Shown: positions 135 through 62,997 of the stretch, one piece after another
How positions within the stretch are numbered: the stretch's first letter is position 1
Layout: every line of letters starts with the position of its first letter
Assembly (NCBI GenBank): GCA_027604185.1
Contig: JADGKB010000029.1
Coordinates: forward strand, 62,001 to 126,000
Direction: 5' to 3'
Origin: Boothiomyces macroporosus
Taxonomy: Eukaryota; Chytridiomycota; Chytridiomycetes; Rhizophydiales; Terramycetaceae
Length of the DNA: 64,000 nt
Notes under the pieces: model-generated
What the model saw: only the letters and a program-made list of their open reading frames with translations
What the model was told of the DNA's origin: nothing
Databases searched by the model: none
Made by a program: the position numbers and the translations under genes

Positions 135-1274
135 TTAAATCCTCTTCATCTTTTTGGCTTGTTGCTTCTTTTGTTCCTTCTTTTTCAACTTTTCTTCTGC
201 TTTACGTTGACTTTCAGGCGACAATTTTTGAATATTTTCCAATAATTGCTTCTTTTCAGCTACTTTCTTGTCGGCCAATTCCTAGATTAGAAAAAATTAC
301 TCGCTTTCTTTCTTCTTCAAACTGTTTCAAAATGGTCTGTTCAGCAGCTGCCCGTAATCGCTTTGCTTTTTGCTTTCCTTCTGCTGACAATCTGCCATAC
401 TTGCCAATAGTATCAATGATATCAAATGCAACTTGAGATGCAATTGATTGTAAAGCTAAAGATTCATCATTTAATTCAGGGATTCTGAACACCAATTGAA
501 GTGTTTTTGGATGAGTCAAGTCTTCCAATTTTTCAGGTTTGTATGGAGGCAGGTTTGATAAAGAAATTTGTTCAACGATTGGATAACCAGAAGCATCGTT
601 ACCTACATTAGCCAAAAGTACCATTTTCATCTTTTCCTACTGATCCCCATAGTGCTTTCTTTAGACTAGGCAATTCCCAAATGCGGCTAGTAAATTCAGG
701 AGCGTCGGTCATCAAAGTATAAACTTGCTTTGGGAACCCTTGTAAATCTCTTGGTTTAGGAAAGTTGTCCAAATCCCATCTCTTTTTCAAAATACTTGCA
801 GCAGTGTCCTTTGGCAGTATCGCGAACGTAATGTCATCGCTCTCATCACTGTTCAATACACAATTGATTGTAACTTTGTCATAGACCTTTCCAATAGTTA
901 ATTTATCTATAAAGTATTCAATCCAGTCATGACGAGCTTCCAAACGAACCAAGCCGTACATTTTCTCGACATACACTCTTCCGGAACCGTACATTATGTA
1001 ATCCCTAGGACCATCTTTAACAAACTTATGGCCATTGTTATCCCCTACATGAGAGAAATTCTGCGCCCACAAGTCATAGTTTGCGTTCATCCTGTATTAG
1101 ATAATCGTACCATTTCCTCGCAATCTGTTTATTCTTTGCGTTGCCAGTATAATAAGTCAATAAATAAACAAGGATACCCGCGACAGCAGCTATTTCAATC
1201 CATAAATCAAATATAGTAATGGTCTGCCAGTCCAACGCTGGGCGATATTCTTGAAGCGGTTGAAAATCTGCCAT
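135..1274 (-). CDS. CCDC47-like (DUF1682) ER membrane protein
   Basis: Four exons encode about 360 aa, after removal of 19-nt introns at 1092-1110, 603-621 and 282-300. One membrane segment lies near residues 19-38 (LWIEIAAVAGILVYLLTYYTG), followed by a cytosolic domain with the family signature YGSGRVYVEKM, then EGKQKAKRLRAAAEQ and a Lys/Glu-rich tail typical of CCDC47 C-termini. Human CCDC47 is part of the PAT/multipass translocon and ER calcium handling. The only in-frame ATG is at 1274, so unlike human CCDC47 there is no signal peptide or acidic lumenal domain; upstream sequence in frame has only a GTG. The start lies 17 bp from the divergent OST2/DAD1 start, so both genes share a tiny promoter or begin inside each other. 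Family assignment is strong; the ER role is inferred. Confidence 0.85.
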
Positions 1275-1291
1275 AGATTGGTTTTTCAAAA

Positions 1292-1669
1292 ATGTCGAAA
1301 GCAGCAAAGCAGCAATCAGTTTTTGCACGATTATCAGCTTCGTATTCAGAAAGCACACCACAGCTGCTAAAACTGATTGACGTATTTCTTGGATTTGTTA
1401 TGGTAACGGGAATCGTTCAGTTTGGGTACATGATACTAGCCGGTACTTATCCATACAATGCTTTTCTCTCTGGATTCATTTGTTCAGTTGGAGTGTTTGT
1501 AAATTCAGGTATTTGATTGTTGATTCAGCCAACTTAAGAATCCAGTTGAACCCACAGAATGAAAAAGAGATTTCAAATGAACGGTAATAGTTACTTATGT
1601 AGTGCGATCGCTGACTATGTCTTTTCGACAATGGTGTTATTCTTGTTTGTAGTCTGCTTTATCGGTTAA
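1292..1669 (+). CDS. OST2: Oligosaccharyltransferase subunit OST2/DAD1
   Basis: Three exons encode 112 aa, the usual DAD1 length, with introns at 1509-1528 (20 nt) and 1584-1602 (19 nt). The protein has the DAD1 layout: a short basic N-terminus, three hydrophobic helices (LLKLIDVFLGFVMVTGIVQF, an AFLSGFICSVGVFV segment, and a C-terminal helix ending CFIG) and the conserved RIQLNPQN motif between helices 2 and 3. DAD1/Ost2 is an ER membrane subunit needed to assemble the oligosaccharyltransferase that N-glycosylates nascent proteins. The poly(A) signal AATAAA overlaps the TAA stop. It is transcribed away from the CCDC47-like gene, another ER translocon component, perhaps sharing control. Confidence 0.93.
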
Positions 1670-1794
1670 TAAACTCGTCAACTTGAATCCCGCTTATAGG
1701 TCCTTTAATGGGCTTTATCGCTACTATTAAGCTGCAAAATGAATGCAGTAGATCAAAGGATAGTGTAAATAATGAATTTATTGCTGTTCAGTGA

Positions 1795-2496
1795 TTACAA
1801 CTTGTTGAAAGCTACAATATCAACGGATTGAACATAATCGGCAAGAGATTCAGTGATTTCATCAATGATATCATCGGTACCAACCAAGTCATCAACAACG
1901 ACAGCAGTGATTGTGAGCTTCTTGATACCATAACCGATTGGGACGAGTTTGTTGGTACCCCACAACAAACCTTCCTTCTTGATGGCCAAAACACCATCGG
2001 TAAGAGCCTTCATGTCAGTTTCATCATCCCATGGCTTAACATCAAAGATGATCATAGATTTAGCATCAGGTCTTGGCTTTCCAGCTGCCTTCTTTCTGTT
2101 GTATTCAGCAACACGTTCTGCCTTGATTCTTTCATTTTCTTCATCTTCTTCGTCATCAGAACCGAACAAGTCAAGATCGTCATCATCTTCTTCCTTTGCT
2201 TCTTCCTTCTTGGCAGGAGCAGCTTTAGCTGGAGCTGGAGCAGCCTTTGCAGCTGGTTTAGTTCCTGGGAATGCTTTGAATTCAGCAGCAGTGTATGAGG
2301 ATAAGTGGTTGTACCAACGGGTAGCATTGACATATTTGGCAGCTGGTGCTGATTTGAATTGTTCGTAAACCGCTACATCAGCTTGGGATGGAGTGTATCT
2401 AACATGAATTCAAAATTACCCTTCAATGTAGGATTTGTCCAAAAGGTAATCATCAAGAGCTTTTGCGTCTTTATCAAGGTTGGTGAATTCTGGCAT
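1795..2496 (-). CDS. EFB1: Translation elongation factor 1-beta (eEF1B alpha)
   Basis: Two exons with one 21-nt intron at 2399-2419 encode 226 aa. Order: a GST-C-like N-terminal region (SQADVAVYEQFK, WYNHLSSY), an Ala/Pro/Lys linker, an acidic cluster DDDDLDLFGSDDEEDEE, and the guanine-exchange domain (SMIIFDVKPWDDETD, LVPIGYGIKKL, VDDLVGTDDIIDEI, SVDIVAFNKL). This is the complete eEF1B architecture; the protein reloads GTP on eEF1A in the cytosol. The C-terminal VDIVAFNKL, which contacts eEF1A, is intact. Length matches fungal and animal orthologues (about 206-230 aa). AATAAA lies about 15 nt past the stop. Confidence 0.97.
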
Positions 2497-5701: not shown

Positions 5702-6608
5702 ATGCCAGTTGAACAATCTCAAAACAAAGTCACTTTAAAACACGGAAAATCAACCGTTCAAATTTATTTACTTGGGGCTACTCTCACCAGTTGGGTGTTT
5801 GACGGCCAAGAACGTATTTTTGTCAGGTAATCTTTCCTAATCATTAGTTCAAAAGCTAATTACGATGGCCCTAAAGCGATTCGCGGTGGAATGTATATAT
5901 AGCTAACCCTAGTCCATTGGTGTTCCCTCAATTTGGTCCAAAAGGACCTCTCCCACAACACGGCTTTGCAAGAGTTTCTAAATGGGACTGGCTAGGAGTT
6001 ACAACCGAAAACGCATCCGAATTGACTGTATCTTTTGGTTTGAAACCAGATGCTGTCCCTGAATCACAAAGAAAGATCTGGAGTCACGATTTCAAATTAT
6101 TGTACACTGTTACTCTCATTGGAAACACTTTGAAAACTAAATTGACTGTACATAACACTAGTTCCGGACCGTTTGGGTTTACTAGCTTGTTGCACACTTA
6201 TATCCGTGTCAAGGATGTAACCAAAGCACAAGTGGTAGGATTGACTGGATACACACTTGAAGATACAATCAACAATAACTTGATTTCTACAGAATCTCGC
6301 CATGGAGTTACTGTCGCTGGTGAAGTCGACAGAGTATATCAAAATGTAACCAACAACATTTTGACAATTGAAAATACGCACATTGGTGCTGGATTCATTA
6401 TTTCGAAATCCAACTTTAAAGATGTTGTTGTTTGGAATCCCTGGATAGAAAATGCCAAAAAGATGGCAGATTTCGATGATGAAGGTAATTGTTACTTATC
6501 GTAGAGTATCTCAATATGATTTGCGTCGAAGTAGGCAATGTTGCTTCTCCAATTCAATTAGCGCCAGGCGGTGTTTGGGAAGGTGAACAAACTTTGGTCG
6601 CAATATAA
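5702..6608 (+). CDS. Glucose-6-phosphate 1-epimerase (YMR099C/aldose-1-epimerase family)
   Basis: Four exons, 281 aa; introns at 5827-5847 (21 nt), 5893-5912 (20) and 6485-6504 (20). Conserved blocks include YLLGATLTSWVFDG, SSKANYDGPKAIRGGIPLVF, FGPKGPLPQHGFAR (active-site His), LHTYIRVKD and VVVWNPWIENAKKMADF. The third intron joins FDDE to a run ending in VEVGNV, restoring the catalytic Glu region that yeast YMR099C has as ICIEPG. The enzyme interconverts alpha and beta glucose 6-phosphate in the cytosol, feeding the G6P dehydrogenase encoded elsewhere in this window. Length matches the family (about 297 aa in yeast). AATAAA overlaps the stop; the FOL1 stop follows convergently after 25 bp. 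Confidence 0.92.
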
Positions 6609-6633: not shown

Positions 6634-8812
6634 TTATTTATGTAAGCATCCATCAGCTACCAGTGCAACATCCTTCATCTCTTTAACATCGTGAACTCTA
6701 ATTATCGATGCACCTGCTATTATCGCTGCCGTATTGGCAGCTGCAGTTCCCCATACTCTATCTGCTGGTTTGGTCTGTCCGGTAGCAGTTCCAATAAATC
6801 TCTTGCGAGATAGCCCTACTAAAATGGGCATACCAGATAGTTTTGGTTCGCTTAGAGTTAGTTGGCGAAGGTTTTTGATTATTTCAAAGTTTTGCTCTGT
6901 ATTCTTGGCAAATCCTACACCGGGATCAACAACAATATTCCATCTACATACTCCAGCCTCGAGAGCCTGTTCGGTGCATCTGGATAGTTCAGTAGCGATA
7001 ACAGGAACAAGACTGCCTTCATACTTGGTTAAAGAGTCCATAGTTTTGCTATCACCTCTCATATGCATCAAACACACAGGAACGTGGCATTCTGACATTA
7101 CTTTGAGCATATTTGGATCCCGCATTCCACCAGAGATGTCATTTATAAGGTTTGCACCAGCTTCAACGGCAGCCTTGGCAACTTCTGCCCTAAAAGTATC
7201 CACAGATATAGCTATATCCTTATTCTTTTCTCTAATAGCTTTGATTACAGGAACAACTCTTTCAATCTCTGCCGCAGTTTCAATTTCTTCTACATTAGGA
7301 GCAGTTGACTGTCCTCCAATATCAATAATATCCGCGCCTTCTGCAGCCATCTTTAGTGTATTTGCCACCGCCGCATCAAGTGTATTGTACTTTCCTCCAT
7401 CGCTAAATGAATCTGGAGTGACATTAAGGATGCCCATAATGAAAGTGCGTTTGGACAAATTCCATGCAGCATTGCCAACAGGAACTACTTTGTAGATTGA
7501 ATCTTTTGAAGAGTTCTTGTATCTGGCCAATTCCAAAAGTCTTCCTACGGTACGGTAAAGTACTGGGTGATAAAAGTTTTCAGCAATACTAAAATCAGTT
7601 TAATAGTACTCTGCTAATGGCTCTAGAACAAATAGACGTTCTTGAATTCTAGGATGCGGAATGACCAAGCTATCTGTCTTGTATTCAATATGGTTAAAGA
7701 ATAGTATATCCAAGTCGATCGGACGAGGGCCATTTCTAACTGCTGAAAAGTCTCTTCCGAGCTTTCCTTCAATCTCTTTCAACTGAACCAAAAGTTCTTC
7801 AGGATTCAATTTTGTTTCAACCTTCCGTTAACTTTGCTTACCTTTAAAGCAGCATTGAGGAATTTCGGTTGATCTTCCACATACATTGGCGCGGTTTCAT
7901 ATAAAAAGGAAGTATCAGTAACTTTGATATTCCTTGCTTTCAGTTCTGAAATTGCACGCTGAATATTTCCATGTCTATCGCCCAAATTAGTTCCAACTGC
8001 CAAGTAAGCAATATTGATAATAACTTCATCTTTCTTTCCAACAACTTTTTTGCTCTTTGTAATTTCAACACCTGCCAATGCAAACATCAATGCAGAAGGT
8101 TTTTGCACTTTAACTGTTACTTTATCCACATTGCATTGAGCCAACACCACATCACAAATTGCAATTACCATAGTTTCCAGAGTTTCGTATTTGGAATTTT
8201 CGACAAATTCAGACACCTGGCGCGCAATGGTTTTGTAATTGTTTCTGTCTGGGCTTTGATTAGGATTGGCCTGCTCGGGTTTGAAATGAGCAGAGATATT
8301 GATCAACACCCGCTGCTTTTCAATGCGTTCATGAGGATGAATTCCAATGATGCAAGATAAAGTTAAATCTTTGATAAAGATCACATCTTCGGCTGTTGGA
8401 TCTGGATATTCAATGTACACCGAATTCGAAGGTTTGAGAAATTCAATATCATTAACAGATCTTGTAATCTCAATACCTACAGTATCGGCATGTAACAGCG
8501 CATTGCACTTTTCAATTTTAACAGTAACCTTCTTTAACCCCATCAAAAGCAAATCTAACGCAATTTTGGCAGAGAGAGCTTCCAAGGTCTTTAAGCTGGT
8601 ATCATTTTCAACAAACTTTTGAATCTTGTTTGCCATAGCAGAATAAGAAACTAGATGAAAAGTTATTTACCAGTATCTTCGATCTTGTCGTTTGTTTGAA
8701 AGGTAATATATCCAATAATATTGAATATAAGCATGATCTGTTTCGGCATTCCCCAATGGTTCGATCCCACTTGGCCTTTAACCTTGAAATCTTGCAGGAT
8801 AATTTTGTCCAT
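6634..8812 (-). CDS. FOL1: Trifunctional folate synthesis protein FOL1
   Basis: Four exons, about 705 aa; introns at 8651-8670 (20 nt), 7822-7841 (20) and 7589-7609 (21). Order: dihydroneopterin aldolase-like domain 1 (VGSNHWG, DTVSYSAMANK), domain 2 (LSCIIGIHPHERIEKQRVLI, YKTIARQVSEF), HPPK (AYLAVGTNLGDRHGNI, FLYETAPMY, RPIDLDILFF) and DHPS (FIMGILNVTPDSFSDGG, IIDIGGQSTAP, NDISGG, VDPGVGFAK, LVGLSRKRFIG). These make 6-hydroxymethyl-dihydropterin and condense its pyrophosphate with p-aminobenzoate, the pathway blocked by sulfonamides. The fusion order is typical of fungi. The start at 8812 has a strong context (AAAAAAATGG). An in-frame ATG at 8926 would add 38 residues with no acidic residue, like a mitochondrial presequence, matching yeast Fol1 location. 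Confidence 0.95.
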
Positions 8813-9587: not shown

Positions 9588-11130
9588 ATGGATGGGCAGG
9601 TAGTAATCCTACAAGAAACGACAGAAAAATCAAATAATAGACTAGGATTCTGGAAATTCTCAGTTGGATTAAGACATAGTTACACCTCCTTGCAAATTTG
9701 GATTTACTTGCTTGGAGTTGCAATGACAATTGCGTTATTTGTATTTCTCAATTCAACACAAGGTTTTGTACTCAAGGAAATTCTTAATTATCCAACTGAT
9801 AACCTGGGGTATGCCTCTGGGTCTTTGGTGTTTTACGACGAGTTGTTATCACTTTTTATGGTTGCAGTGTGGGGGATTCTTTCGGATTTAGTGGACAGAT
9901 TTTCAATATTTGGATTAGGGTTTCTTTTTAGTGCGTTGGGATTAGGAGTATTTACGTACGCATCAAATCTATACCCACAGTTGTTGCTGTTTAGACTTGT
10001 ATTTGCAATTGGTGGTTCCGCATGTAGCGCAATGCTGACGGCTATTTTATCTGATGTCGTATTGGAACAAGATAGAGGCAAACTAAGCGGGATTACTGGA
10101 CTAATGTCTGGAGCGGGTGCGTTGTTGGGCGTGTTTTTGTTTTTGCCGTTGCCTGCAAAGTTTGGAGATGGCCCTGATGCCATCCACAAGTCTTACTTGA
10201 TTGTTGCAGGTGTCGCTATCTTCATCGCGACATTATTGTTTGCAGTAAGCATTGCTAGATATTACCAAGATAAGCCTCTTCCACTGCAGTCTGACCTTAC
10301 AGGACAGCACAGTGATTCAGGGTCTTCAAATGAAGGTTTGGATTCAGAAGAAAGGCTCCTGCCAACAAACGGAACAGTAGGCAAACTGTGGGATTCAATT
10401 TCATTGGGATTTTCAGCAAGTAAAAACCCAAATATTCTAATGGGCCACTTGGCTAGTTTCTTGGCAAGAGGCGATTCTCTATCTTTAACTCTATTTATTC
10501 CATTATGGGTTTATCAATACTATTTGGTAAACGGATTGTGTAATACAAACACATCCCCAGAGAACGCAGATAAGGATACTTGTAACGAAGCATATATCAA
10601 AGCCTCTATTTTGAGCGGTGTAGCACAGACGTTTGCTTTAGTCGGTGCCCCAATATTTGGTAAGCTATTCCTAATTTGCAGGCTATCTAAGTGACAAAAT
10701 CTATCGGCCATTTGCCCTGCTATTTGCCTCAGTGTTGGCAGCCATCGGATATTTATTATTGTCACTTCAGCAAAATCCTATTGCAGGTATCAACTTTTTA
10801 TTCTTATTTTTGGTTGGATTTGGAGAAATAGGACTGATTATTGTATCGCTAGGGCTGGTAACTCATACATCGGTGCCAAATGGCAGTAAAGGTAGCGTAG
10901 CTGGCATTGCTTCATTTTCTGGTGCTCTGGGTATTCTTGTAATTTCAAAGCTTGGGGGCTACTTGTTTGACTCTTGGTTCCCTGGAGCACCATTCCTGCT
11001 ATTGGCCATACTCCACTTTGTATTCATTGCACTATCTTTAATTATTATTGCATCGCAAGTGTCTGCGAATGGTGGATGGTCGCTTTCCACCTTTACAAAA
11101 TTAAGAAACGATTTTCAGTTAATCGAATAA
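9588..11130 (+). CDS. Major facilitator superfamily transporter
   Basis: Two exons, 506 aa, one 22-nt intron at 10660-10681 that joins GAPIFG to YLSDKIYRP (second MFS motif A half). About 12 membrane helices are visible as two bundles split by a Ser/Gly/Glu-rich cytosolic loop at about residues 225-265. Motif-A-like WGILSDLVDRF sits between TM2 and TM3 and its repeat GYLSDKIYRP between TM8 and TM9, as in canonical MFS proteins. The N-terminal FLNSTQGFVLKEIL segment resembles a conserved but uncharacterised fungal MFS family. Substrate cannot be told from sequence; no sugar-porter signature is evident. The stop overlaps AATAAA. Confidence 0.85.
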
Positions 11131-11296: not shown

Positions 11297-12510
11297 ATGG
11301 GTCAAAAAACTTCAAAACTTGCACCTCATCCAGAGATGTCGATTCAACTTGCCAAGACCATCGCCAAAATTCCAAAAGGAATGAGAGCATTGAACACTTC
11401 AGTTACTGTTGATTTCCCTGAAAACACCTTTGTAACTCACAACTGCGATTTACCTCCACTTCAAACCGTCGCTACCAGAGATGAAGTATTGTCCTTGTAC
11501 AAGGTCATGGTAGAAATTAGAAGATTGGAAATGGCTTGCGATCAAGTACTTGCGACTAATATAGGCATACAAAGCTAAACAGATTCGTGGGTTCTGTCAC
11601 TTGTCGATTGGACAAGAAGCTATTGCTGCAGGTATGGAAGCCGCAATCACCAAAAATGACTCTATTATTACTGCCTACAGATGTCATGGTTTTACCCTTA
11701 CTCGTGGTCAAACTGCAACCAGTATTATTGCAGAATTGATGGGCAAGAGGATTGGTAGCTCCTTGGGCAAAGGGGGATCTATGCACTTGTTTGGACCTGA
11801 ATTTTATGGTGGTAACGGTATCGTTGGAGCTCAAGTTCCATTAGGTGCTGGTATTGCTTTGGCACACAAATACAGAGAAAACAATGCAATGTGTTTCTCA
11901 CTCTACGGTGATGGTGCCGCAAACCAAGGGCAAGTATTTGAAGCTTACAATATGGCTAAATTATGGAACTTGCCATGTGTGGTAATCGCTTTTTTAATTG
12001 CAGTTTGTTTGTGAAAACAATAACTATGGTATGGGTACCGCTGCTGCTAGAGCTGCTGCTTCAACTAAATATTATACTCGTGGTGACTATATTCCTGGAT
12101 TGAGAGTTAACGGTATGGATGTTTTAGCTGTTCGTGAAGCAAGCAAATACGCTAGAGAATGGACTTTGTCTGGAAAAGGACCTCTTGTTATGGAAATGGT
12201 AACCTATCGTTATGGTGGCCACTCCATGTCTGATCCTGGTACTACTTATCGTACCCGTGAAGAAATTCAACATATGCGTTCAACCAGTGATCCTATCAAC
12301 GGATTGAAGGACAGAATCCTCAAGAACGACATGGCTACTGAAGATGAATTGAAGCAGATTGAAAAGCAAGTCCGTGTTGAAATGGATAAAGCCGTTGCCG
12401 AGTCTATGGCTGCTGCTGAACCAGATGAAGCTGAATTATACACCCAAATCTATGCTCCAGGAAGTGAACCAAAGTCCGTAAGAGGAGTTAATAGTGTACA
12501 CTACTATTGA
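11297..12510 (+). CDS. PDA1: Pyruvate dehydrogenase E1 component alpha subunit
   Basis: Three exons, 390 aa; introns at 11548-11566 (19 nt) and 11982-12003 (22). After splicing the order is [71 protein letters not shown], the thiamine-diphosphate motif [17 protein letters not shown] with [10 protein letters not shown], and [20 protein letters not shown]. The last holds the Ser of the PDH-kinase site and ThDP phosphorylation loop. E1alpha/beta decarboxylates pyruvate and acetylates lipoyl-E2 in the mitochondrial matrix. The start is uncertain: ATG 11297 gives [13 protein letters not shown], while ATG 11336 gives [19 protein letters not shown], a textbook presequence. A CCAAT box lies at 11263-11267. 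The gene indicates aerobic pyruvate oxidation. Confidence 0.96.
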
Positions 12511-18181: not shown

Positions 18182-18757
18182 ATGAAAGGCCAGTCGCTCA
18201 ATATTGACGGGATTCTAGGATTTTGCAAGACGTTGCTCTCCCCATCCCTGTTTGTCCCCCGCCTGCAGACAAATAATCTTACCACCCTCAACTTTCAGAA
18301 ATTGAAAGCACTTGGAATAAGAGCGATAGTATTTGACAAGGATAATACTGTCACTAGACCTTATGAGAACCATGTCTATCCACCATTTCAAAAAGCGTGG
18401 GATGAATGCCGCTCTCAATTCAAAGTCTTGATAGTCTCTAATTCAGTGGGATCAAAAGATGACCAGGAAAAAACATATTTACAAGTAGAACGAGAAACAG
18501 GAGCCAAAGTCCTTTTACATACCAACAAGAAACCAAGTGGTGCAGAAGTGCTACCGAAATATTTCGACTGTAAGCCATCAGAAATCGCAGTCGTGGGAGA
18601 CAGATTATTCACCGACATTGTATATGGAAATAGAATAGGTGCGTACACTATTCTGGTTACAGAAATCATTACTGAAAAGGGAGACAATCCATTTGCGATC
18701 CAAATTCGTAAATTTGAGCGGCTGTTCTTAAAAGTACTTGAACGATTAGCGAAATAA
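18182..18757 (+). CDS. GEP4: Mitochondrial phosphatidylglycerophosphatase GEP4
   Basis: Intronless, 191 aa, a typical Gep4 length. The N-terminal segment has the family pattern LLSPSLFVPRL, then the HAD motif I as FDKDNTVT, the PYENHVYPP block, motif II SNS, and motif III/IV GDRLFTDIVYGNRIG. Gep4 removes phosphate from phosphatidylglycerophosphate at the inner mitochondrial membrane, a step to cardiolipin. The HAD nucleophile and acid (DKD) and the GDR..TD pair are intact, so an active enzyme is expected. Consistent with the other mitochondrial genes in this window. The stop overlaps AATAAA. Confidence 0.93.
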   Translation: MKGQSLNIDGILGFCKTLLSPSLFVPRLQTNNLTTLNFQKLKALGIRAIVFDKDNTVTRPYENHVYPPFQKAWDECRSQFKVLIVSNSVGSKDDQEKTYLQVERETGAKVLLHTNKKPSGAEVLPKYFDCKPSEIAVVGDRLFTDIVYGNRIGAYTILVTEIITEKGDNPFAIQIRKFERLFLKVLERLAK

Positions 18758-18808
18758 ACTATTGTGACGTGGCAGCTAATTTCTCACAATTTTACATTTG
18801 AAATCGAA

Positions 18809-48277: not shown

Positions 48278-51003
48278 ATGAACCCCATACTGAGTGATCT
48301 ACCAAAGAGGCCAGGTATTTACTCGTTCTTATATAGATAATGGAGGTATTGCGGGTAAAAATATTAGAGTTGCAGTCAATATATTCCCCGTTACCCAGAT
48401 TTCGTCATCCGACGCATTCCAATACGATGTTCAAATAACTCCGGATGTGCCGGCAGAGAAAGCCAGAAGAGCATTTAGACAAGCGGAAGCAATCATCAAA
48501 CAATCGTATCCAAACGCATGGTTCGCTTTTGACGGTCAAAAGAACGCTTACTCGCTCACAAACATTGAAAACCAAAACTTTGAAGTGATTATTCCTGATT
48601 TGGTTGATATAGAAATCCCCGAGCTACCACGAGCAGAAAGGGATAGTAATCGCGGTGGAAGAGGAGGTTTTCGTGGTGGTCGTGGCGGAGGCAGAGGTGG
48701 TCACAGTGTACCATATGTCCCTCCATCAATGGAGCTGAAACCTGCAATTATCTATACCAAGGATACCGTGGTTGGAAAATCGCTTACTCTAAAGTTTGCA
48801 ATTAGAAAGACTGCCACCATCAGTCTGCACGACCTCTTGCTCTTTGCAAAAGGTAAAACGGTAGAATCGGAGGGCGTGCTGCATGCAGCTACTGCTCTCT
48901 CTGTAGTTTTAAGACATATTCCTTCAATGTTGTTTACTCCAGTGGGTTCAAACTTTTTCTCCCCTGTTGGCAGAACTCCAATCAGTGGGGGATTGGAAGT
49001 CTGGAGAGGGTATCTGACAATTGATATAGGTACCATCAATCTGTTCGGTCATTAATGGCGGGCCATTTAGGCATCAATATTGACATTGCAACCACCATCT
49101 TTAGAAAGGGAAATATGCCACTCTTGGACTACCTGATGGAAGTTTTAAATTGTAGAAATGAAAATGATCTCTCTAGAATACCAGCGCAACAATTGGACAA
49201 AGCATGTCGAGGTGTTAACTGCATTACTACCCATAGAGGTGATCAAAAGCAAAGATTCAGCATTAAACGTTTATCCAAAGATTCAGCGCTGACTATGAAA
49301 TTTGAAAAGGATGGTCGCCTCGTCTCTGTCGCTGATTATTTCCAAGACGAATTTAATTGGCGCTTAAGATATCCAAATTTACCACTCGCCCTCAAAGCCA
49401 ATGGTAAAACTGCTTTCCCTCTGGAATGCTTGACTATTCAGCCAGCACAACGAGTAAAGGAAAAATTGAACGGTAATCAAACTGCGGATATGATTCGAGC
49501 AACCGTTCAAAGACCAAGTGACAGAAGACGGCAAATCGAAGATGCTGTGATCGAGTCTTTGAAATATAACGAAAACCCCTACATGAAGTCATTTGGAGTA
49601 AAAGTTGAGCCAAAGATGATGGAAATTCAATCAAGAATACTTCCAGCTCCAAAGGTTGTTTTTGGAGGCAATTCTTCATTAAACGCCCAAGAAGGAGCTT
49701 GGAATTTACGTAATCAAAGGGTAAATTTGTGCTAACATTAGCTTGTTGATACCCCTCTTATGGACTCTTTTGCCTTTGTATTCTTCACCAGAGTTTCAAC
49801 AAACGATGCAAGAGAAGTCAAGGACACAATTTTAAGAAAATGGAAACAATATGGAATGGATATTCCAAACTTTGACTGTCCAATTTTGGTAGCAAACCCA
49901 CAATCAGAGCTAAATGTCAAAGGTGCCCTTATGCAAGCATACCATGAGGCTTCCAAGAATATGCGGTCCAGGTGCAAGATCATTTTATGTATTGTCGAAA
50001 ACAATGGCAAAGCATTATATGAACAAATTAAAAGAGTTACTTTATGTGAAGGAGGCATTGTCACCCAGGTTATGGTTGGCAAGCATGTTCTCAATCCTAG
50101 AAACATCAAGGACCAATATATTTGCAATGTTGCGATGAAAGCAAACATCAAGCTTGGAGGCGGAACCAATCATGTCGATCATTTACCGTTCCAAAACGAA
50201 GGTACTATGTTCTGCGGAGCAGATGTAACCCACCCAAGTCCGGGATCGAATGCGCCCTCAATTGTAGCTGTAGTTGCGTCGACAGACAACCAAGCTATTA
50301 AATACAATACTTACTGTAGAGCCCAAGGCCACCGAAGAGAACTGATTGAAGATTTGGAGGCTGTTATGGCACAAGCTTTGGCTGACTACAAGAGAGCCAA
50401 CAGAGGTAATTTACCAAAACGCATTGTTTTCTTTAGAGACGGAATCGGTGCCGGACAATTTAAAGAGGTAAGGGAAATTGAAGTTGAACACATCAAAGAA
50501 GCTATGGCAAAAGCAAAATGCGATGCTCTATTAACATTAATTGTTGTCCAAAAGCGACATCATATTAGATTATTCCCAATAGACAATAACCAAGATCGAT
50601 CAGGAAATTGCTGTTCTGGGACTGTGATTGATTCTAACGTTGTTCATCCAACTGAATTCAACTTTATTTTGCAATCACATTCTGGACTTCAAGGAATGTC
50701 TCGACCTACCATTTATCACGTATTGTACGATGAAGCAAAAATGACCAGCGATGAATGCCAGCAATTGTGCTATAGTCTTTGCTTTCTGGCAGAAAGAGCT
50801 ACCAGGGCAATCTCAATGGTCTCTCCTGCGTACAGGGCACAGCTTGCTGCATATTGTAGTTCTATGCTAATTTAGATGCAAGGATGTTTTTGGAAGGTGA
50901 AGATATTAGCGACAACGCTTCTGTTCGAAGCGAAGATGTCCAAATGAAGTTCAAGCTGACTCCATTTGCTCCAGGTGTTGAAAACAAAATGTACTACATG
51001 TGA
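48278..51003 (+). CDS. AGO1: Argonaute protein with RGG insert
   Basis: Five exons, 880 aa; introns at 48315-48336 (22 nt), 49010-49029 (20), 49721-49741 (21) and 50856-50875 (20). Order: N-domain (LPKRPDNGGIAGKN, AWFAFDG), an Arg-Gly box (RGGRGGFRGGRGGGRGG), linker DUF1785 (GLEVWRGYHQSVR), PAZ (YPNLPLALKANGK, LECLTIQPAQRV), MID and PIWI (GADVTHPSPG, RRELIEDLE, FFRDGIGAGQF, VVHPTEFNFIL). Guide 5'-phosphate residues are kept (Y and K in ALYEQIKRV, Q in VTQVM, K in ANIKLGG). Of the DEDH slicer tetrad, D, E and D are present but the final His is Gln (SPAYRAQLAAYYARMF). It probably loads small RNAs in RNA silencing, with doubtful slicing. Ends MYYM. Confidence 0.96.
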
Positions 51004-51062: not shown

Positions 51063-53318
51063 TTAAACTTTTAGTGCAAGATCGTTACCTTCCTTTACTA
51101 CATGAACTGTATCGCCGTCCTTGATTCTGTTGTCGATCAATTTCTTTGCTAGTGGATTCATTATCTTTTTCTGTATCAATCTAGACAATGGTCGCGCACC
51201 AAATGCAACATCATAACCATGTTGACCGAGCCAGTCTTTTGCTTCATCTTCCACAATGATAGTAAGATTCTGGTGTGACAATCTTTCTTTCAGTTCGTTA
51301 ATTCTAATATCCACAATTTTACGCAGGGATTCTCTGCCCAGCCTATTGAATACTATCAGGTCATCAATACGGTTCAAAAACTCTGGCGAGAAATGATGTT
51401 TTACCGCTGATTGCACACTTGCTTTCGTCTCTTGTGAAATCTCTCCGTCTCCAAAATCTTCTAGATACGCTTCAGCTCCCAAGTTAGATGTCATGACTAT
51501 GATTGTGTTTTTAAAATCAACCTTACGACCTTGGGAATCAGTCAACGCGCCTTCATCCAATACTTGCAAGAGAATGTTCGAAACATCCTTGTGTGCCTTT
51601 TCAATTTCATCAAACAAGACAATGCTAAACGGCTTTCTACGTACTGCTTCGGTTAAAGTACCTCCTTCATCGTAACCAACGTAACCTGGGGGAGCGCCAA
51701 TCAATTTTGACACTGAATGTTTCTCCATAAACTCGGACATGTCAATTCGAACAATCGATTGATCAGAGTCAAACAAGAAGTGTGCAATCGACTTGCAAAG
51801 TTCAGTCTTACCACAGCCAGTAGGGCCAAGGAACATGAATGACGCTACTGGCCTATTTGGAAGCGATAGCCCAGTTCTTCCTAATCTAACAGAGTCACAA
51901 ACTGAGGCAATTGCAGTATCCTGCCCAATCACTCTTTTCTTCAACTCTTCTTCCATTCTCTGCAGCTTTTCACGTTCACCCTGCACTAAGGAGGTTAAAG
52001 GAATTCCAGTTGATCTTGAGATTACTTGGGCGATATCGTTTGATGTAACTCTTTCATGCAGGAGCGTATTGTTTTCTTGCTGTTCATTTTCATTTGGTAT
52101 TTTAGCCTGCAGCTTTGGGATAGTATCATACAGCAGTCTCGAAGCTTTAGTTAGATCTCCTTTTCTTTGTGCAATGTCATATTCCTGTCGAGCTTCTTCG
52201 AGTTCTTGTTTGATTTGCTTTCTTTCTCTCAACTTTTCCCTTTCGGTATCCCAAGTTTCTTTGAGCTTGCTGTACTGGGATTCATAATCAGTCAACTGGG
52301 CTTGAATAGCTTCACGGCGCTCATTACTCTTTTTGTCACTTTCCTATTATCAGTCAATAATTACCTTTTTGAGTGATTCCAATTCAATCTTTAAAGTCAA
52401 AATTTGTCTGTCAAGTTTTTCAAGTTCTTCAGGTTTACTTTCTTGAACTAGCTTTAGCATTGAACAGGCTTCGTCCACCAAATCGATTGCTTTATCGGGA
52501 AGATATCGATCATTGATATAGCGTGCAGACAGTTCTGCAGCAGCAACCAAGGCATCGTCTGCAATTTGAACACCATGGTGAACTTCATATCTTTCTTTTA
52601 ATCCTCTAAGAATAGATATAGTTGCTGCTACGGTTGGCTCATCCACAATTACAGGTTGGAATCTTCTTGCTAATGCAGGATCTTTTTCGATATATTTGCG
52701 ATATTCGTCCATTGTAGTAGCACCGCAGCAGCGCAGCGTCCCTCTTGCTAATGCAGGCTTCAGCAAGTTGCTTGCATCCATACTTCCCTCAGTTTTACCC
52801 AAACCAAATAGCATATGCAATTCTATAATCAAATTCAACTTACCATCAATGAACAAGACTAGATTGCCTTGGGCATCTTCCACATCTTTAATTACTGCTT
52901 TCAATCTCTCCTCGAATTCACCACGATATTTACTTCCTGCAACTAATGCGCCTAAATCCAACGAAACGATTTTCTGATTCTTCATACTTTCAGGCACTTC
53001 GTTGTTTACAATTCGTTGTGCTAATCCTTCAGCGATTGCAGTCTTTCCCACTCCAGCTTTCCCAATCAAGACTGGATTGTTCTTTGTTCGACGAGATAGA
53101 ACCTGCAGCGCTCTTCTTATTTCATTATCCCTTCCAATTACAGGGTCCAATATTCCATCAGAGGCTTGCTGGGTTAAATCAACTCCGTATGAATCTAGTG
53201 CTTCTCCTGGTTTTCGCTGTGGTGCTTCTTGCTGCATCCCATTAAACGATCTGGCGAGCACTCTGTTGAATTGAACTCTTTTTAATAGATTAATTGTATT
53301 CAATCTTAATATCGGCAT
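51063..53318 (-). CDS. HSP78: Mitochondrial ClpB-type disaggregase Hsp78
   Basis: Three exons, 737 aa; introns at 52823-52843 and 52344-52364 (21 nt each). A basic presequence ([20 protein letters not shown]) leads straight into NBD1 ([20 protein letters not shown], Walker [18 protein letters not shown], pore [11 protein letters not shown], Walker B LFIDELHMLFG after splicing), the middle coiled-coil domain, and NBD2 ([46 protein letters not shown]). It lacks the Clp N-domain, as does yeast Hsp78 (811 aa). It disaggregates proteins in the mitochondrial matrix with Hsp70. Intron 1 has no in-frame stop and disrupts Walker B unless removed. The Argonaute stop lies about 60 bp away, convergent. 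Confidence 0.96.
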
Positions 53319-53439: not shown

Positions 53440-54603
53440 TTAATTATCCGCCACTGGTTCGACTTCTTCCAAATGAACAGAAGGTTTTAAACAAAATGGA
53501 GGGCTGACTACATCGTTGAATAAAAATGTTCTGAGTTAGAATGAAATTACCCGTAGATTAATACAATGAACCCTACCACTTGGAGCGACTTGAAAGATTC
53601 CCATCCGAGTGCCAAGGAGGCCATCCAAATGAACATGGTCCTGCTTGTGTCGATAGTGGATCTGGAAGTTGCACTGATGTTCTGAGTGACTGCTAATCCA
53701 CACCAATTGAAGATTGAAATTGAAAACATAATTCCAAATCCTGCCCAAAGCACTTGAGGGAACATGATCTGGCGATACATTTCGTACATGTCAAAAACAT
53801 TGCCTGGTTCTCCATTAACACCCAAGGTGAAATGCAAGATTGGCACTGCTGCGACAGTAAGGAACAATCCAAAGAATCCTTCCAAACCCACAGCTTTCAA
53901 AGGCTCAATAGAGTACTTGCTCATGATTTTTTCTTCCACGACAAATTGTGTAGCAGTAAATCCTTGGGCTACAACAACTAAAAAGACACCAATTGGTGAA
54001 GTAGGTCTTGCGGCAGATTCGCTAGCTTGAAACACACTCGATAACCCAACGATTGCAACACCCAAAAAGACAACAAATAGCGCTGCCCATCTATATGCTG
54101 GATGCTTCCTTCCTAAAAATAATGTAGAAAAGATTCCAGTAAACAGCACAACAGATCCTCTAAGCATTTGATAAATAGAAGCTGAAACAAAGATTAATCC
54201 CACATTCATCAGTGTAGTAGCTGTAAGATCGCAAAGGGTAGGGATTAAGAATAGTACCTGCTTCCATCCAGTCAATTCAGCCTTTGCATCTATTTCATCA
54301 TAAATAGTTTCTTGATTTTCCGGTTGATCTTCTACTTCAGCAACAGGCTGATATTCATTCTTTGACTTTCTCCACTTCATAAATTCAAATACAAAGAGGC
54401 ACATTATTTCCCCGATAAACATATTCTAAATTAGGAGCAAATACAATCGTCTGGAAAAGCGGCTGTTCGAAATAGTGTCTTTGAGACGGGTCTTGATCAC
54501 AGTGAGACACACAAGTGAGATCCTGTAATTTGTTTAGGAGAGTGTTGATGGTGCCGGTAAAGAGCATACCAGCTACTAGCACATAGATAAACACTGAATT
54601 CAT
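53440..54603 (-). CDS. SLC35F6-like drug/metabolite transporter family protein
   Basis: Three exons, 374 aa; introns at 54426-54444 (19 nt) and 53531-53550 (20). About ten helices: VFIYVLVAGMLFTGTINTLL, FQTINMFIGEIMCLFVFEFM, LFLIPTLCDLTATTLMNVGL, then MLRGSVVLFTGIFSTLFLGR, WAALFVVFLGVAIVGLSSVF and further pairs, ending VLIYGTFLFNDVV. A signal-anchor-like start is at ATG 54603. SLC35F6 (C2orf18/ANT2BP) sits in lysosome or mitochondria; the transported substrate is unknown. The LCDLTATTLMNVGL and RGSVVLFTGIFS motifs are the family's hallmarks. Helix order fits the 10-TM DMT fold. Confidence 0.88.
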
Positions 54604-57479: not shown

Positions 57480-57515
57480 TAAATGCAGCTTATATCTTGA
57501 ATCTTTTGCTTTTTC

Positions 57516-58297
57516 ATGAAAATCATTGAAAACATACCGTATGGAGGGATCATTCACCCAAACCGATGCTTGGATTTATATATCCCTGATAAATTGAATG
57601 AGAGCATTTCGATAGCTTTCTTGGTTCATGGCGGTGCTTGGTGTACTGGAGACCGAAAAGATGTAACATAATTTAACCAAAGTTAGGACCATTGGCCACG
57701 GAATTGGCCAATAGAGGGGTAGTAACTGCTACTGCGGGATATAGGCTTACAACTAAAGATGGAAAGAGCGAAATCGTTGCTCCAATGCATACTCAGGATG
57801 TTGCAGATGGTTTGACAATGCTACATGACCGCATTAAAGAGTACATTCACTTTCAACCATCTGGAGTTGTATTACACGGACATTCGGCTGGTGCTCACAT
57901 AACTGGCTTAATTTCATTGCAATCTGGTTGGGTGTCTGATACAGTAGCTTCTTGGATAAAGAGAAACGTCTCGTCAGAGGGTATCTTTTGCATTGAGCAA
58001 TTGCTAAAGGAGTATCCTAGTTACGGCGACTGGTTCTTGTTCCATGCATTTCCAGATAGATCAACATGGGATAGATATTCACTGTACAAGAAGCCGTTCA
58101 GAAAGATTCCGCAAACTATTGTCCACTCTGAACAAGACTCTTTGTTGCGATATGCGTTATCGGATGAGTATTTCAAACATGTATCGGAAATCCCGGGTTC
58201 CGATAGTCATTTACTCCACGGCTATGACCACGATGAAGTTCTTCAGGCTAAAGAATTTTATGATTTACTAAGCGGATACTTTGTTCTCATTCAATAA
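57516..58297 (+). CDS. Alpha/beta-hydrolase, kynurenine formamidase-like
   Basis: Two exons, 253 aa; one 20-nt intron at 57663-57682 ending AAAG. The oxyanion motif is FLVHGGAWCTGDRKD, the nucleophile elbow is GVVLHGHSAGAHI, and the fold ends with HSEQDSLLR (Asp) and LLHGYDHDEV (His). HGG-x-W and GHSAG match arylformamidase/BNA7 and related carboxylesterases; BNA7 hydrolyses N-formylkynurenine in tryptophan breakdown. A ceramide- or lipid-directed esterase is an alternative. Length matches yeast Bna7 (261 aa). The stop overlaps AATAAA. No other kynurenine gene is in the window. Confidence 0.75.
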
Positions 58298-58395: not shown

Positions 58396-61300
58396 ATGCC
58401 AGAGATAAATTTGCAGTTGGAGGGACTTTACAGCGTCGTACTTTGGGGCTAATATTAGGAATGCATTCAATTGGTTCAAAATGCGATTTCAATACTCCCT
58501 GGGATCAATTCGTTAAATGTGGAATTACATAACTTGACTGTGGATTATGATGCCGACATTCTGGACAAGGGAGAGATAGTGGATGCAATCAAAGATGCCG
58601 GATACAAAGCACTGGACTCTAATGTTATAATTAAACTTTCTATTAAAGGAATGACTTGCCAGTCTTGTGTAAAAAGTATAAAATCACTATTGGCTGGACA
58701 AGTGGGGATCAAATCAGCAGAGATCAGTCTGGAAGCAGAAACCGGTGTAATTGAAATCGATGAGTTGCAGATTGTACCAAGCACCGTTATCTCTATCATA
58801 GAGGATGCTGGATTTGAAGCGTCATTGATTTCAGATACGAACCATTCCTCCATCAAAGTTATCATCAAAGGAATGACTTGCCAGAGCTGTGTCAAAAGCA
58901 TCAAAGCGGCGGTATCCGGACACCACGGAGTTGAATCGATTGATATTAATTTGGAAGAAGAGGTGGGCACGTTTGAGTTCAACGAATCCTTCATCTACCC
59001 TGAAAAGATTGTTCGGATTATCGAGGATTGTGGATTTGAAGCCAAGTTATTACCGAATACGAAAACTGTAAAGATATCCATCAAAGGAATGACATGTAAT
59101 CCAAACTGATATTAGGCCAATCATGCGTCAAGAGCATTACAAATTCTGTCTCTCAGAGTCCTGGGGTTGAAAAGATCAATATCAGCTTGAAATCAGAAAT
59201 GGGAACTTTTGAATTCAACCCTTTGTTGATTTCAGAGGAAAAGCTGGTAAAGATAATCGATGATTGCGGATTTGATGCATCTCTAATTACTCATCAGTCA
59301 AATACCACAATCCATGTTTCCATCAAAGGCATGACTTGCCAATCTTGTGTAAAAAGTATATCCAGTGCACTCTCGCAAAACCCAGGAATTATCGCATCAA
59401 AGATTGATCTTAGTACTGAAAGCGGTACTATTGAAATTGACGAATCAAAAATTACAGGTAAAGATGTAGTGCAGACTATAGAAGATTGTGGTTTTGATTG
59501 CAAGCTATCTGACGGACCCCAACTAATTTCATTTGATGACGAAGATGTCCCTAGAAAGAAGCCTGTTAAATCGGTTTTGCAAGCTTCAAAATCCACCTTA
59601 AACACCCTGAAAAACGAAGAGATTGAGCTTGAAGACTTTGGGAGAAAAATGAAGAATTCTGTAGTGGGATTACCAGATTCTATCATCACTACATTTGAAA
59701 TTCAAGGTATGACTTGCGCTTCTTGTGTTGCATCAATCGAAAAACACTTGGCTACAGTAAAGGGCATTTACAAATCATCTGTGGCTTTGGCTTTGGAGAG
59801 AGCTGAAATCGAACATTCGTTAGATCTCTCACCTGATTCTATTGCTCAAATCATCAATGATATCGGGTTTAAAGCAAGGGCGATTACGGAAAATGAAACT
59901 GGAGTGGTAGATTTGACAATCCTTGGAATGACATGTGCAAGTTGTTCTGGCAAAATTGAAAATCATCTGAGTAGAATGCCTGGAGTATATTCAGTATCCG
60001 TTAACCTACTGGGGCAAACAGGAAGATTCGAGATAAACAAATACACAGTTGGGATTAGAGATTTAGTGGAAGAAATTGAATCTTTAGGTTTCAAAGCGTT
60101 TATACCCGATAGTTCCACAAATTCACAAGTGGAGTCTTTGGCAAGAACCAGAGAGATTAGTAAATGGAGAGATTCATTTTGGGCTTCATTTAAACTAGCC
60201 TTACCTGTCAGTATTATTTCAATGGTTCTTCCATCTTGCATACCAGATTTAGTGAACTACACTGTTATTTTCCCTGGTTTAACTCTTGGTGACCTAACAA
60301 TGATGTTGCTCACGATACCAATTCAATTTCACATTGGATCTCACTTTTATATCCAAGCATACAAAGCCCTAAAGCATGGCAGCTACACTATGGATGTCCT
60401 AATCGCCCTGGGTACATCTTTGGCATTTGGATTTTCAGTTATTTCCATTTTGAACAGCATGGCAAGAGGAGGAAAGCCCCCAGCGCAGGTTTCATTCGAA
60501 ACCTCATCAACCTTAATTACATTTGTAACATTTGGAAGGTACATTGAAAACCGAGCAAAGGCAAAGACTTCAAGTGCATTGTCAACACTAATCTCTTTGG
60601 CACCATCGTTTGCTACTTTGGTGGAAATGGACTCGGCCCAGCAAATCACTACAAAGCAAATACCGTCCGAATTTATCAAAATTGGAGATTTGTTGAAGAT
60701 TTTACCCGGGGAAAGAATTCCTTGTGATGGGACCATAGAATCTGGTGAATCATCAGTTGATGAATCCGTTGTTACTGGTGAACCGCTCCCTGTGGAAAAA
60801 TCTGTCGGATCAAAGGCAATTGCTGGAACTGTCAATGGTACAGGTGCTCTCATGGTCAGAGCAGAAAGAGTAGGAGGCGATACAACTTTGTCTCAAATCG
60901 TAAAATTGGTCAGTGGTGCCCAAGCATCCAAGGCGCCTATTCAAGCAGTAGCTGACAAAATTGCAGGAGTTTTTGTTCCGGTTATCATTGCCCTAGCATT
61001 ATTTACCTTCTTTACTTGGCTAATTGTAATTGAAACTACTGGGTGGATTCCACCATCGTTCCCAAAAGATAGTAACACTTTGTTTGTCTGTCTAAGCATG
61101 TGTATATCTGTTATTGTTGTTGCTTGTCCATGTGCTTTGGGTTTGGCTACTCCAACCGCTGTGATGGTTGGAACAGGCGTTGGTGCAAAGTTGGGTATAT
61201 TGATTAAAGGTGGAGGGCCTCTCGAAATGGCGCATAAAATCACCAAAATTGTTTTCGACAAGACTGGTACTTTAACCAACGGAAAGATGACTGTTCACAC

Positions 61301-62444
61301 TTTCGATGTATTCCCAACATCGATACTGACTAAGCCTGAAATCTTGGAAATGGTTGGTTTGGTAGAAGCAGAGAGTGAACACCCAATTGCCAAAAGTATT
61401 GTAAAGTTCTGTGGTGATAAGGTCACTCACAAAATTGTATCGTCAGAATCTATTCACGGTGCTGGAGTTAAAGCAAGCGTAACACACGGAATTTCTGGCC
61501 ATACTTATTTGGTTTCAATTGGAAATCTAAAGTTTATGGAATCGAATGGATGTACAACTCCTCTAAATCTCTCGTCAATTCAGACTCATCACGAATCGGA
61601 AGGAAGAACTGTTGTGTTTGCTGCCATTAATAATACCATTGCAGCAATTATTGCGTTATCCGATACAATAAAACCAGAAGCTCCGGCGGTGGTTAAATGC
61701 TTGCAGAATATGGGTATTAGTGTGGCGATGATTACTGGGGATCAGTTATTGACTGCACAAATGATTGCGCAGCAGTGTAATATTACCGAAGTTCACGCTG
61801 GCGTATCTCCTAGTGGAAAGCAAAGTTTGATATCCTCTATGCAACTCTCAGATGTTGTTGCTATGGTGGGTGATGGTGTAAACGACTCTGCTTCCTTGGC
61901 GCAGTCAGATATGGGTATTGCTGTGTATGGAGGTACTGATGTTGCAATAGCAGCTGCTTCAATCGTGCTCATGAGACCCGATCTTCAGGATGTTATATCC
62001 GCGATTGATCTGTCTAGAACAATCATGAGAAGAATTTGGCTAAACTTTTTCTTTGCATCCATATATAATTTAGTAATGGTACCACTAGCTATGGGTGTTG
62101 GAGCACCATGGGGTAATTCAAAACTAATTCTAGGTATAACTCTCCCTGCAATGGTTACAGGGATGGCAATGTCAATGTCATCAGTATCAGTGGTAATTTC
62201 GTCTCTATTGCTACAATTATACCGAAGAAGGACAGTACAAACTGATGGTACATTTAAACCACCTACTTTTACCCAAGAATTTACAGAGGAGTTGACAGAC
62301 CTAAGGTTCTCTGACATCTTTGATCCTGAAGTCGAAACCAAAACAACAGCGGTCTCGCAGTTCAAGAAAGCACTCTCCTCAGCAATGACGATGATTGGAG
62401 GCAATGCATACGCAAAATTACAAGACAGTGAACATGAAGTGTAA
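58396..62444 (+). CDS. CCC2: Copper-transporting P1B-ATPase with seven N-terminal HMA modules
   Basis: Three exons, 1335 aa; introns at 58438-58458 (21 nt) and 59096-59115 (20). Seven heavy-metal-associated modules: module 1 ([16 protein letters not shown]) lacks the CxxC pair; modules 2-5 carry near-identical [11 protein letters not shown]; modules 6 and 7 carry [11 protein letters not shown] and [11 protein letters not shown]. The pump has eight helices, TGE ([13 protein letters not shown]), the CPC metal motif [23 protein letters not shown] phosphorylation, SEHPIAKS and [12 protein letters not shown]. It exports Cu(I) into the Golgi or out of the cell. Human ATP7A/B has six modules and yeast Ccc2 two. 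Intron 2 splits the TGC of the fourth module's CxxC. Neighbour at the right end is a phytochelatin-synthase-like gene. Confidence 0.97.
58600..60110 (+). repeat. Tandem HMA-module array inside the copper ATPase gene
   Basis: Modules of about 70-75 residues recur from about 58630 to 60110. The heptad [11 protein letters not shown] occurs four times in succession (about 58650, 58871, 59088 with an intron inside, and 59330), with similar flanks ([12 protein letters not shown]). The last two have MTCASC. The four similar ones look like recent internal duplications. Confidence 0.85.
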
Positions 62445-62462
62445 AATTAACAATAAATTTAA

Positions 62463-62997
62463 TCAAAAGCCGTACTTGTTTCTTTTTTCAATTTCCTTCT
62501 TGACTGCTTGCAAAGCTTGATCATATCTTTCTTGCCCAAATACTGTAATTAGCTGGGCATCCATTTCCCCGTCTACAAAATCATCAAAGGAAATAACCCG
62601 TTCTCCAGGATTAACCATACCTGAATTAGCAATTACTACCATCTCTTCTCCATTGTTGAGACATTCTCTTTCTTGGCCAGTCACGCAAGATGACACATCC
62701 TTTTAGCGCTTTATCTCTGTTTAACTCTGCTCTAGGTTGGTCTTCTTCATCCTTTTTCTTTGAGTTTCGTCTGCTCTTTGCAACAGCTTGGAAAGGATAA
62801 ACCACCAACTGATAAAATGTTTGGTTTGGAGAAGGTGCGAGTTCCTGAAAGTCAATAACTGGCCGTAATGAATGATATTGCTCGGGGACTAATTCCTGCA
62901 TGGTCTTCTTTGACGGGAGCGCTGGTTTTAAATCGTTTTCGCTGAAATCTTTAAATCCATCGGCTGTATTTGGTTTTGTAGAAACTGGTCTTGACAT
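62463..62997 (-). CDS. Unknown 171-aa protein
   Basis: Two exons, one 19-nt intron at 62667-62685 with a GTGACT donor and GAG acceptor. The N-terminal part is polar (MSRPVSTKPNTADGF) with YQLVVYPFQAVAKSRRNSKKK; the C-terminal part has ILQCLNNGEEMVVIANSGM, FDDFVDGEMDAQLITVFGQ and an ending helix (YDQALQAVKKEIEKRN). No family is recognised. The splice is the only mod-3-consistent GT-AG join found; without it there are two separate frames. It ends 18 bp from the copper ATPase stop, convergent. Confidence 0.5.

Follow-up and report, generated by a model that had tools for sequence, protein, structure and literature searches.

Near-uniform 19-22 nt introns, very probably of the U2 type, in the nuclear genome of the chytrid fungus Boothiomyces macroporosus

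The introns of Boothiomyces macroporosus (Chytridiomycota, Rhizophydiales, Terramycetaceae) were analyzed in a 64-kb stretch of its genome, referred to below as the window (positions 62001-126000 of the 135,226-bp contig C29), and in further parts of the assembly, which comprises 15.2 Mb in 216 contigs. Nearly all the introns found are shorter than about 25 nucleotides (nt) and differ little in length. They are very probably nuclear spliceosomal introns of the U2 type which in this fungus have been reduced to a uniform length of 19-22 nt. All the introns described here are known from genomic sequence alone. A previous sequence-only reading of the window had proposed that the introns are almost all 19-23 nt long and belong to the nuclear genome of a holomycotan. 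The host is indeed a chytrid fungus, the segments look like nuclear spliceosomal introns, and the length range holds for 62 of the 65 introns counted in the window and 263 of the 277 counted in a 264-kb sample.

Length distribution of the introns

The sample combined the window with 20 further stretches, each 10 kb long (loci L009-L028), and the coding model was trained on only 119 long stop-free frames. In an agnostic run, intron length was left flat from 8 to 150 nt and the two end dinucleotides were the sole requirement, eleven other dinucleotide pairs serving as controls. At a penalty of -5, GT..AG gave 19, 22, and 15 introns of 19, 20, and 21 nt (56 in all), versus 2-5 at these lengths combined for the control pairs; at a penalty of -8, the figures were 26 versus 1-4. 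The GT..AG counts were 10 versus 4-19 in the controls at 8-13 nt, 1 versus 4-11 at 14-18 nt, and 93 versus 95-139, that is, no excess, at 24-150 nt. Among the 56 agnostic introns, 49 begin with GTA and 35 end in YTRAY-N2/3-AG, an ending which occurs at 857 of all 30,775 AGs (2.8%). Chance is excluded as the source of the GT..AG introns of 19-21 nt.

Scans made independently of gene models gave a similar picture. The pattern GTAAN{4,34}CTAATNYAG matched the whole genome 1,122 times, versus 208 times for its reversed control. The first 100 matches (contigs C1-C4), a few of which stem from repeated segments, include 47 of 19 nt, 25 of 20 nt, 9 of 21 nt, 2 of 22 nt, none of 17-18 nt, and 17 of 25-47 nt. 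At 17-18 nt the strict motif stays at control level throughout the genome (8 versus 11). Units of the form GTA..YTRAY-N2/3-AG occurred 7, 66, 104, 54, 18, and 7 times in the 264 kb at lengths from 18 to 23 nt, as compared with 11, 18, 14, 11, 17, and 9 times in the reversed control, so that the excess is confined to 19-21 nt.

Refined gene models were built using splice-site matrices, first with a flat length and then with a length penalty. The flat-length run yielded 278 introns, 190 of which are 19-23 nt long, 2 shorter, and 86 at least 24 nt. The penalized run yielded 277 introns in 129 models (2.1 per model on average; 193.5 kb of coding sequence), including 263 of 19-23 nt (59, 114, 63, 20, and 7 at the successive lengths), one of 24 nt, and 13 of 43-283 nt. 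Introns are present in 100 of these models and absent from 29; extrapolated from 263 introns in 264 kb, the genome of 15.2 Mb would hold about 15,000. The hard floor at 19 nt proposed previously is borne out, since the 263 short introns of the refined run all reach this length; the most frequent length is 20 nt, however, and not 19 nt. The two shorter calls of the flat-length run, of 16 and 18 nt, were not kept in the refined run, where the 16-nt call becomes the end of a 22-nt intron (26535-26556).

Phases 0, 1, and 2 account for 42, 32, and 25% of the introns in the refined run. Retention would shift the frame or introduce a stop in 250 of the 263 cases (200 lengths not divisible by three, plus 50 of the 63 introns of 21 nt, which carry an in-frame stop). 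The stops in the 21-nt introns were not adopted as a sign of selection, since an intron without a stop and with a length divisible by three is harder for the finder to detect.

Protein continuity and the deposited annotation

Of the 27 window models with introns, 12, which have 31 junctions in all, were compared with Pfam domains. Inside the listed matches lie 26 of these junctions (among them three each in Transketolase_N and CCDC47 and two each in E1_dh and the S1-P1 nuclease domain), all of which come from introns of 19-23 nt. Three junctions are situated at most 5 residues from the end of a match, and one of the 26, in a WD40 protein, falls only in matches below the cut-off. Predicted proteins were also aligned with selected chytrid homologs: 7 of the 120 Argonaute sequences listed, all 7 of those listed for CCDC47, and 6 of the 120 for transketolase, one of the latter being the deposited model of the same gene. 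Of the 67 homolog-junction combinations, 53 are free of gaps within 5 residues; the other 14 involve a variable CCDC47 loop, single-residue differences, truncated records, or records which look misannotated. Among the models tested, the spliced versions give continuous Pfam domains and continuous alignments.

These results bear on whether the short introns might be just one class, next to a second one of considerable size, made up of ordinary longer introns that escaped detection. The 86 long calls of the flat-length run speak for such a class, and 14 of the 277 calls remain longer under the length penalty. On the other hand, GT..AG at 24-150 nt is below each of the eleven control pairs, all 26 junctions inside Pfam matches belong to the short class, and the sole long call in the 12 scanned proteins (267 nt) lies outside its domain. 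In addition, a complete unit of 19-23 nt stands at the beginning or end of 26 of the 86 long calls; together with the lack of excess over the controls, this leads us to regard most of the long calls as gene fusions or as short exons that were skipped. A large second class is accordingly improbable, while a few of the longer introns may be real.

The deposited annotation provides a further comparison. The spliced transketolase model shows 100% identity over 92% of its length to a B. macroporosus protein, and the best matches of Argonaute (84% over 95%) and CCDC47 (88% over 79%) are from Terramyces sp. JEL0728. In the deposited Boothiomyces transketolase (P0128), a 22-nt and a 21-nt intron at residues 124 and 200 are spliced exactly as they are here, and the record starts at Met59, directly past the predicted 22-nt intron at residue 56, a junction which is free of gaps in the other five aligned chytrid sequences. 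The Terramyces CCDC47 record (P0121) begins at a Met immediately after a predicted 19-nt junction, and the Argonaute record (P0001) terminates with a few unrelated residues at predicted junction 839. The public annotation therefore includes some of the tiny introns and breaks genes at others, and the broken gene models suggest that the related Terramyces may share these introns.

Frame breaks caused by assembly indels or pseudogenes could in principle mimic tiny introns: they are frequent in draft assemblies, and the present assembly contains large repeated segments. Such errors would hardly produce segments with a fixed length, a GTA start, a branch motif, and a YAG end far above the controls, nor conserved proteins aligning without gain or loss at most of the tested junctions once the segments are removed, and two of the segments are spliced at identical places in the deposited annotation. 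This explanation can be practically dismissed.

Intron anatomy, splicing machinery, and the size limit

The strict YTRAY motif, of which the second A would be the branch point, is present in 194 of the 263 short introns. This A lies 5-6 nt before the intron end in 174 of the 194 (shuffled sequences: mean 10, maximum 17) and occupies a nearly fixed place at nt 14-16 in 183. The upstream wall is abrupt, with one case at nt 13 and 95 at nt 14, and 4 nt or less follow the A in only four cases. The commonest pairs of branch position and 3' spacer are (14,5), (14,6), (15,5), and (15,6), with 50, 41, 36, and 29 introns, respectively, and the two values vary independently (p=1.0). The same wall is seen in the first 100 matches of the genome-wide scan, where the 3' spacer alone was fixed (none at nt 12-13, 47 at nt 14). 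The floor of 19 nt is thus made up of two walls with independent spacing: the branch A lies at about nt 14 or later, and it is followed by about 5 nt or more. The 5' splice site is GTAATT-like (A at +3 in 93%, A at +4 in 58%, T at +5 in 44%, G at +5 in 16%, and T at +6 in 61%). A polypyrimidine tract would not fit between the branch site and the intron end; the stretch upstream of the branch site is T-rich.

Genes for spliceosomal small nuclear RNAs (snRNAs) were identified in the genome: at least two for U2, one for U6, and one U1-like gene, the 5' end of which reads ATACTTACCTG. Their contact regions, ACTTACCTG in U1, GTAGTA in U2, and ACAGAGA in U6 (reverse strand of locus L031), are what we take to be the canonical sequences. 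It was observed that T is common and G rare at +5 despite these canonical-looking U1 and U6 contacts. With their GT-AG ends, their branch motif, and the presence of U1, U2, and U6 genes, the introns would be of the U2 type. The N-terminus of Yju2 and that of a Cwc25-like protein, which starts with MGGGDLNLKKSWHP (L036, L037), look canonical when set against their human counterparts. The Cwc25-like gene region is present on two contigs, C49 (L036) and C100 (L037), and the translations are identical over the part compared. The best piece of the U2AF large subunit scored 230.7 bits, which is below the curated cut-off of 310.3. Human-type splicing of short introns needs Smu1/RED; the RED_N and RED_C profiles gave no match in this genome or in the control genomes, so that absence of RED is not implied.

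Several points weigh against reading these segments as uniformly short U2-type introns. The U1-like gene scores 68.8 bits, just under the gathering cut-off of 69.5; the +5 G that would be the expected partner of U1 and U6 is scarce; a strict YTRAY is missing from 69 of the 263 short introns, and in 9 of the 194 that have one the A is at nt 10-13. The flat-length run placed nearly a third of its calls (86 of 278) at 24 nt or more. For the lengths of 22 and 23 nt the motif-only scan shows no excess over the control (18 and 7 versus 17 and 9), and these introns rest on gene models and protein alignments. Because the acceptor matrix of the final models was anchored on AG and a length prior was applied, branch counts from these models carry some selection, an effect from which the agnostic and genome-wide tests are free. 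Lastly, splicing is deduced here from DNA, which would leave room for removal of the segments by DNA elimination or ribosome bypassing; the GT-AG ends, the branch motif matching a canonical-looking U2, and the spliceosomal snRNA genes make removal by such means exceedingly improbable.

If spliced as RNA in vivo, each of these U2-type introns would consist of two abutting recognition blocks. The first, at nt 1 to about 8, would be the GTAATT-like 5' splice site, the first 6-8 nt of which would pair with U1 and then with U6; the second would be the YTRAY branch site, in which the A occupies nt 14-16 and from which another 5-6 nt lead to the terminal YAG. The stretch from the 5' block to the branch A would pair with U2, and the YAG would be reached 5-6 nt downstream. 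Intron length is the sum of two independently varying spacers, with a floor of 14 + 5 = 19 nt when both are minimal, and the two walls might correspond to the footprints of U1/U6 and U2.

Published systems are described below from extracts of the articles cited. For the human B complex, the minimum distance between the 5' splice site and the branch site is estimated at about 52 nt, to accommodate both the 14-nt U2/branch helix and the extended helix of U6 with the 5' splice site (PMC6692369). With a branch A at nt 14-16 the two helices could not both form, which means that this geometry would not be universal; the Boothiomyces spliceosome would be activated with shorter helices or in another arrangement. 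In Stentor, the N-terminus of Yju2 is conserved and Cwc25 lacks the GGG, and avoidance of a steric clash has been proposed (PMC9505925). The Cwc25-like protein of Boothiomyces, identified on the basis of a Cir_N match and the description of CCDC49 in the same article, does not show this lack of the N-terminal GGG plug; if the assignment is right, loss of the plug is not needed at a 14-nt loop. The chances are about equal for and against a spliceosome specific to this lineage (Boothiomyces, perhaps Terramyces) that would work with about 13 nt before the branch A and a different B-complex geometry, possibly without RED, the snRNA contacts and the N-termini of Yju2 and Cwc25 being canonical and no Stentor-style plug loss being required.

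In the sequence-only reading, the floor itself had been taken to suggest steric constraints in the spliceosome. The data fit such a constraint, or a footprint, in this particular spliceosome but not a general limit: the floor is specific to the lineage, since introns of 15-16 nt exist in Stentor and of 16-17 nt in mikrocytids (PMC9505925; PMC10245619). It is a real possibility, although somewhat short of an even chance, that 19 nt is instead a recognition limit, set by the room required for the 5' splice site, the branch site, and the 3' splice site. Most of the 19 nt are occupied by conserved blocks, both spacers crowd at their minimum while varying independently, and other lineages splice introns of 15-17 nt; the wall, on the other hand, is as abrupt as a physical limit would also make it. 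Steric and recognition limits are indistinguishable from sequence.

Uniform ultrashort introns have already been described from mikrocytids, from heterotrich ciliates, and from the nucleomorphs of chlorarachniophytes, and some of those of Boothiomyces had been machine-called in the deposited annotation. The free-living heterotrich Stentor coeruleus likewise has uniform ultrashort GT-AG introns with a near-fixed branch A; these introns are 15-16 nt long, with the A at nt 10-11, and have no strong branch consensus, whereas the YTRAY of Boothiomyces is clear (PMC9505925). Chlorarachniophyte nucleomorphs carry more than 800 introns in a similarly narrow range (18-21 bp), although in about 300 intron-bearing genes of a relic algal nucleus, as opposed to the main nucleus of a fungus, and the highly uniform, conserved introns of the mikrocytid Mikrocytos mackini number 224 in an intracellular parasite with a reduced spliceosome (PMC10245619). 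Yarrowia lipolytica and Trichomonas share with Boothiomyces a clear branch motif a fixed few nucleotides from the 3' end; they are intron-poor, and the Yarrowia introns are rather long, whereas most Boothiomyces models contain introns and the upstream spacer is near-fixed too (PMC2483917). In a limited search of the open-licence literature, seen in extracts, introns of 20 nt were not found reported for any fungus, chytrids included, and the extracts of PMC5364385, PMC13391722, and PMC3569864 do not state chytrid intron lengths. Within that search, Boothiomyces is the first fungus found with uniform ultrashort introns, and its branch motif is clearer than that of Stentor.

These introns are among the shortest known and lie well below the presumed capacity of the human splicing machinery studied so far. 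Since relatives of this chytrid can be cultured and a fungus is closer to yeast and human than the protist cases, this could be a practical system for studying the lower size limit of spliceosomal introns. Gene models in the family will be incorrect at every tiny intron that was overlooked, and surveys excluding introns below 30 nt are blind to such genomes (PMC10639083).

Genes and introns of the window

The 32 gene models of the window, 27 of which contain introns, carry 65 introns: 62 of 19-23 nt (14, 24, 15, 7, and 2 at the successive lengths) and three of 105, 181, and 267 nt (Table 1). The sequence-only reading had counted about 90 introns, about 86 of them short, in about 33 genes; its short majority stands, and its higher total is compatible with ours since our finder misses some introns. 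The three introns it quoted were all located on the + strand, in the PDA1 (11546-11564), S1/P1 (13114-13132), and CatSper-like (32904-32922) genes.

Table 1. Intron-bearing gene models and doubtful long calls in the window (window coordinates).
Feature	Position	Strand	Introns	Length (nt)	Basis or remark
CCDC47-like	135-1274	-	1092-1110, 603-621, 282-300	19, 19, 19	Pfam CCDC47 spans all three
Gene model	1795-2496	-	2399-2419	21	model only
Aldose epimerase-like	5702-6608	+	5827-5847, 5893-5912, 6485-6504	21, 20, 20	Pfam Aldose_epim spans all three
FolB-HPPK-Pterin_bind	6634-8812	-	8651-8670, 7822-7841, 7589-7609	20, 20, 21	2/3 junctions within HPPK match
Gene model	9588-11130	+	10660-10681	22	model only
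PDA1-like (E1_dh)	11297-12510	+	11546-11564, 11982-12003	19, 22	Pfam E1_dh spans both
S1/P1 nuclease	12583-13531	+	12997-13017, 13114-13132	21, 19	Pfam S1-P1_nuclease spans both
Gene model	14237-15768	-	15288-15306, 14953-14972, 14893-14914	19, 20, 22	model
Doubtful call in model 14237-15768		-	14548-14728	181	starts as short-intron-like unit
Gene model	15886-17963	-	17567-17587, 17490-17509	21, 20	model only
Mitochondrial PGP phosphatase-like	18182-19372	+	18734-19000 (doubtful)	267	outside domain; perhaps two genes
Gene model	22187-23482	-	22414-22434	21	model only
Gene model	23762-25470	+	24339-24358	20	model only
Gene model	25493-28108	-	27339-27361, 27241-27259, 26634-26652, 26535-26556, 25626-25644	23, 19, 19, 22, 19	model only
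Doubtful call in model 25493-28108		-	27823-27927	105	
Gene model	28588-29888	+	29215-29234, 29328-29348	20, 21	model only
Ion_trans gene (CatSper-like in the sequence-only reading)	31776-33341	+	31899-31918, 32042-32061, 32563-32581, 32904-32922	20, 20, 19, 19	2/4 within Ion_trans match
Gene model	33416-34839	+	34688-34707	20	model only
Transketolase	36332-38514	+	36499-36520, 36725-36746, 36975-36995	22, 22, 21	Pfam Transketolase_N spans all three; deposited model splices last two
WD40 protein	40413-41579	+	40771-40791, 41088-41110, 41330-41348	21, 23, 19	junctions within WD40-type matches, one only below cut-off
AAA-M41 protease	41613-43694	-	43002-43021, 42782-42801, 41745-41764	20, 20, 20	2/3 within Pfam AAA and Peptidase_M41
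Gene model	44559-46048	-	45966-45985, 44937-44956, 44776-44794	20, 20, 19	model only
Two adjacent models	46631-48208	+	46692-46711, 46796-46815, 47412-47432, 47731-47750	20, 20, 21, 20	model only
Argonaute	48278-51003	+	48315-48336, 49010-49029, 49721-49741, 50856-50875	22, 20, 21, 20	homolog alignment
ClpB-like	51063-53318	-	52823-52843, 52344-52364	21, 21	Pfam AAA and AAA_lid_9 over junctions
Nucleotide-sugar/triose-phosphate transporter-like	53440-54603	-	54426-54444, 53531-53550	19, 20	Pfam TPT spans both
Gene model	57516-58297	+	57663-57682	20	model only
Long gene model	58396-62444	+	58438-58458, 59096-59115, 62113-62133	21, 20, 21	model only

A scan of the window against Rfam at gathering thresholds gave no match, and ARAGORN identified no tRNA in it. 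The product of the gene labeled CatSper-like is a single-domain ion-transport protein, with Ion_trans as its only Pfam match. The two adjacent models at 46631-48208 are probably one dehydrogenase gene, which judged by eye looks like glucose-6-phosphate dehydrogenase, and since this gene was split, a junction may be missing there. Elsewhere in the assembly, matches recur within contigs at distances of about 42.6 kb (C2), 21.6 kb (C3), 53.7 kb (C10), 45.1 kb (C20), and 18.8 kb (C65), and these repeated segments are possibly uncollapsed haplotypes or assembly duplications.

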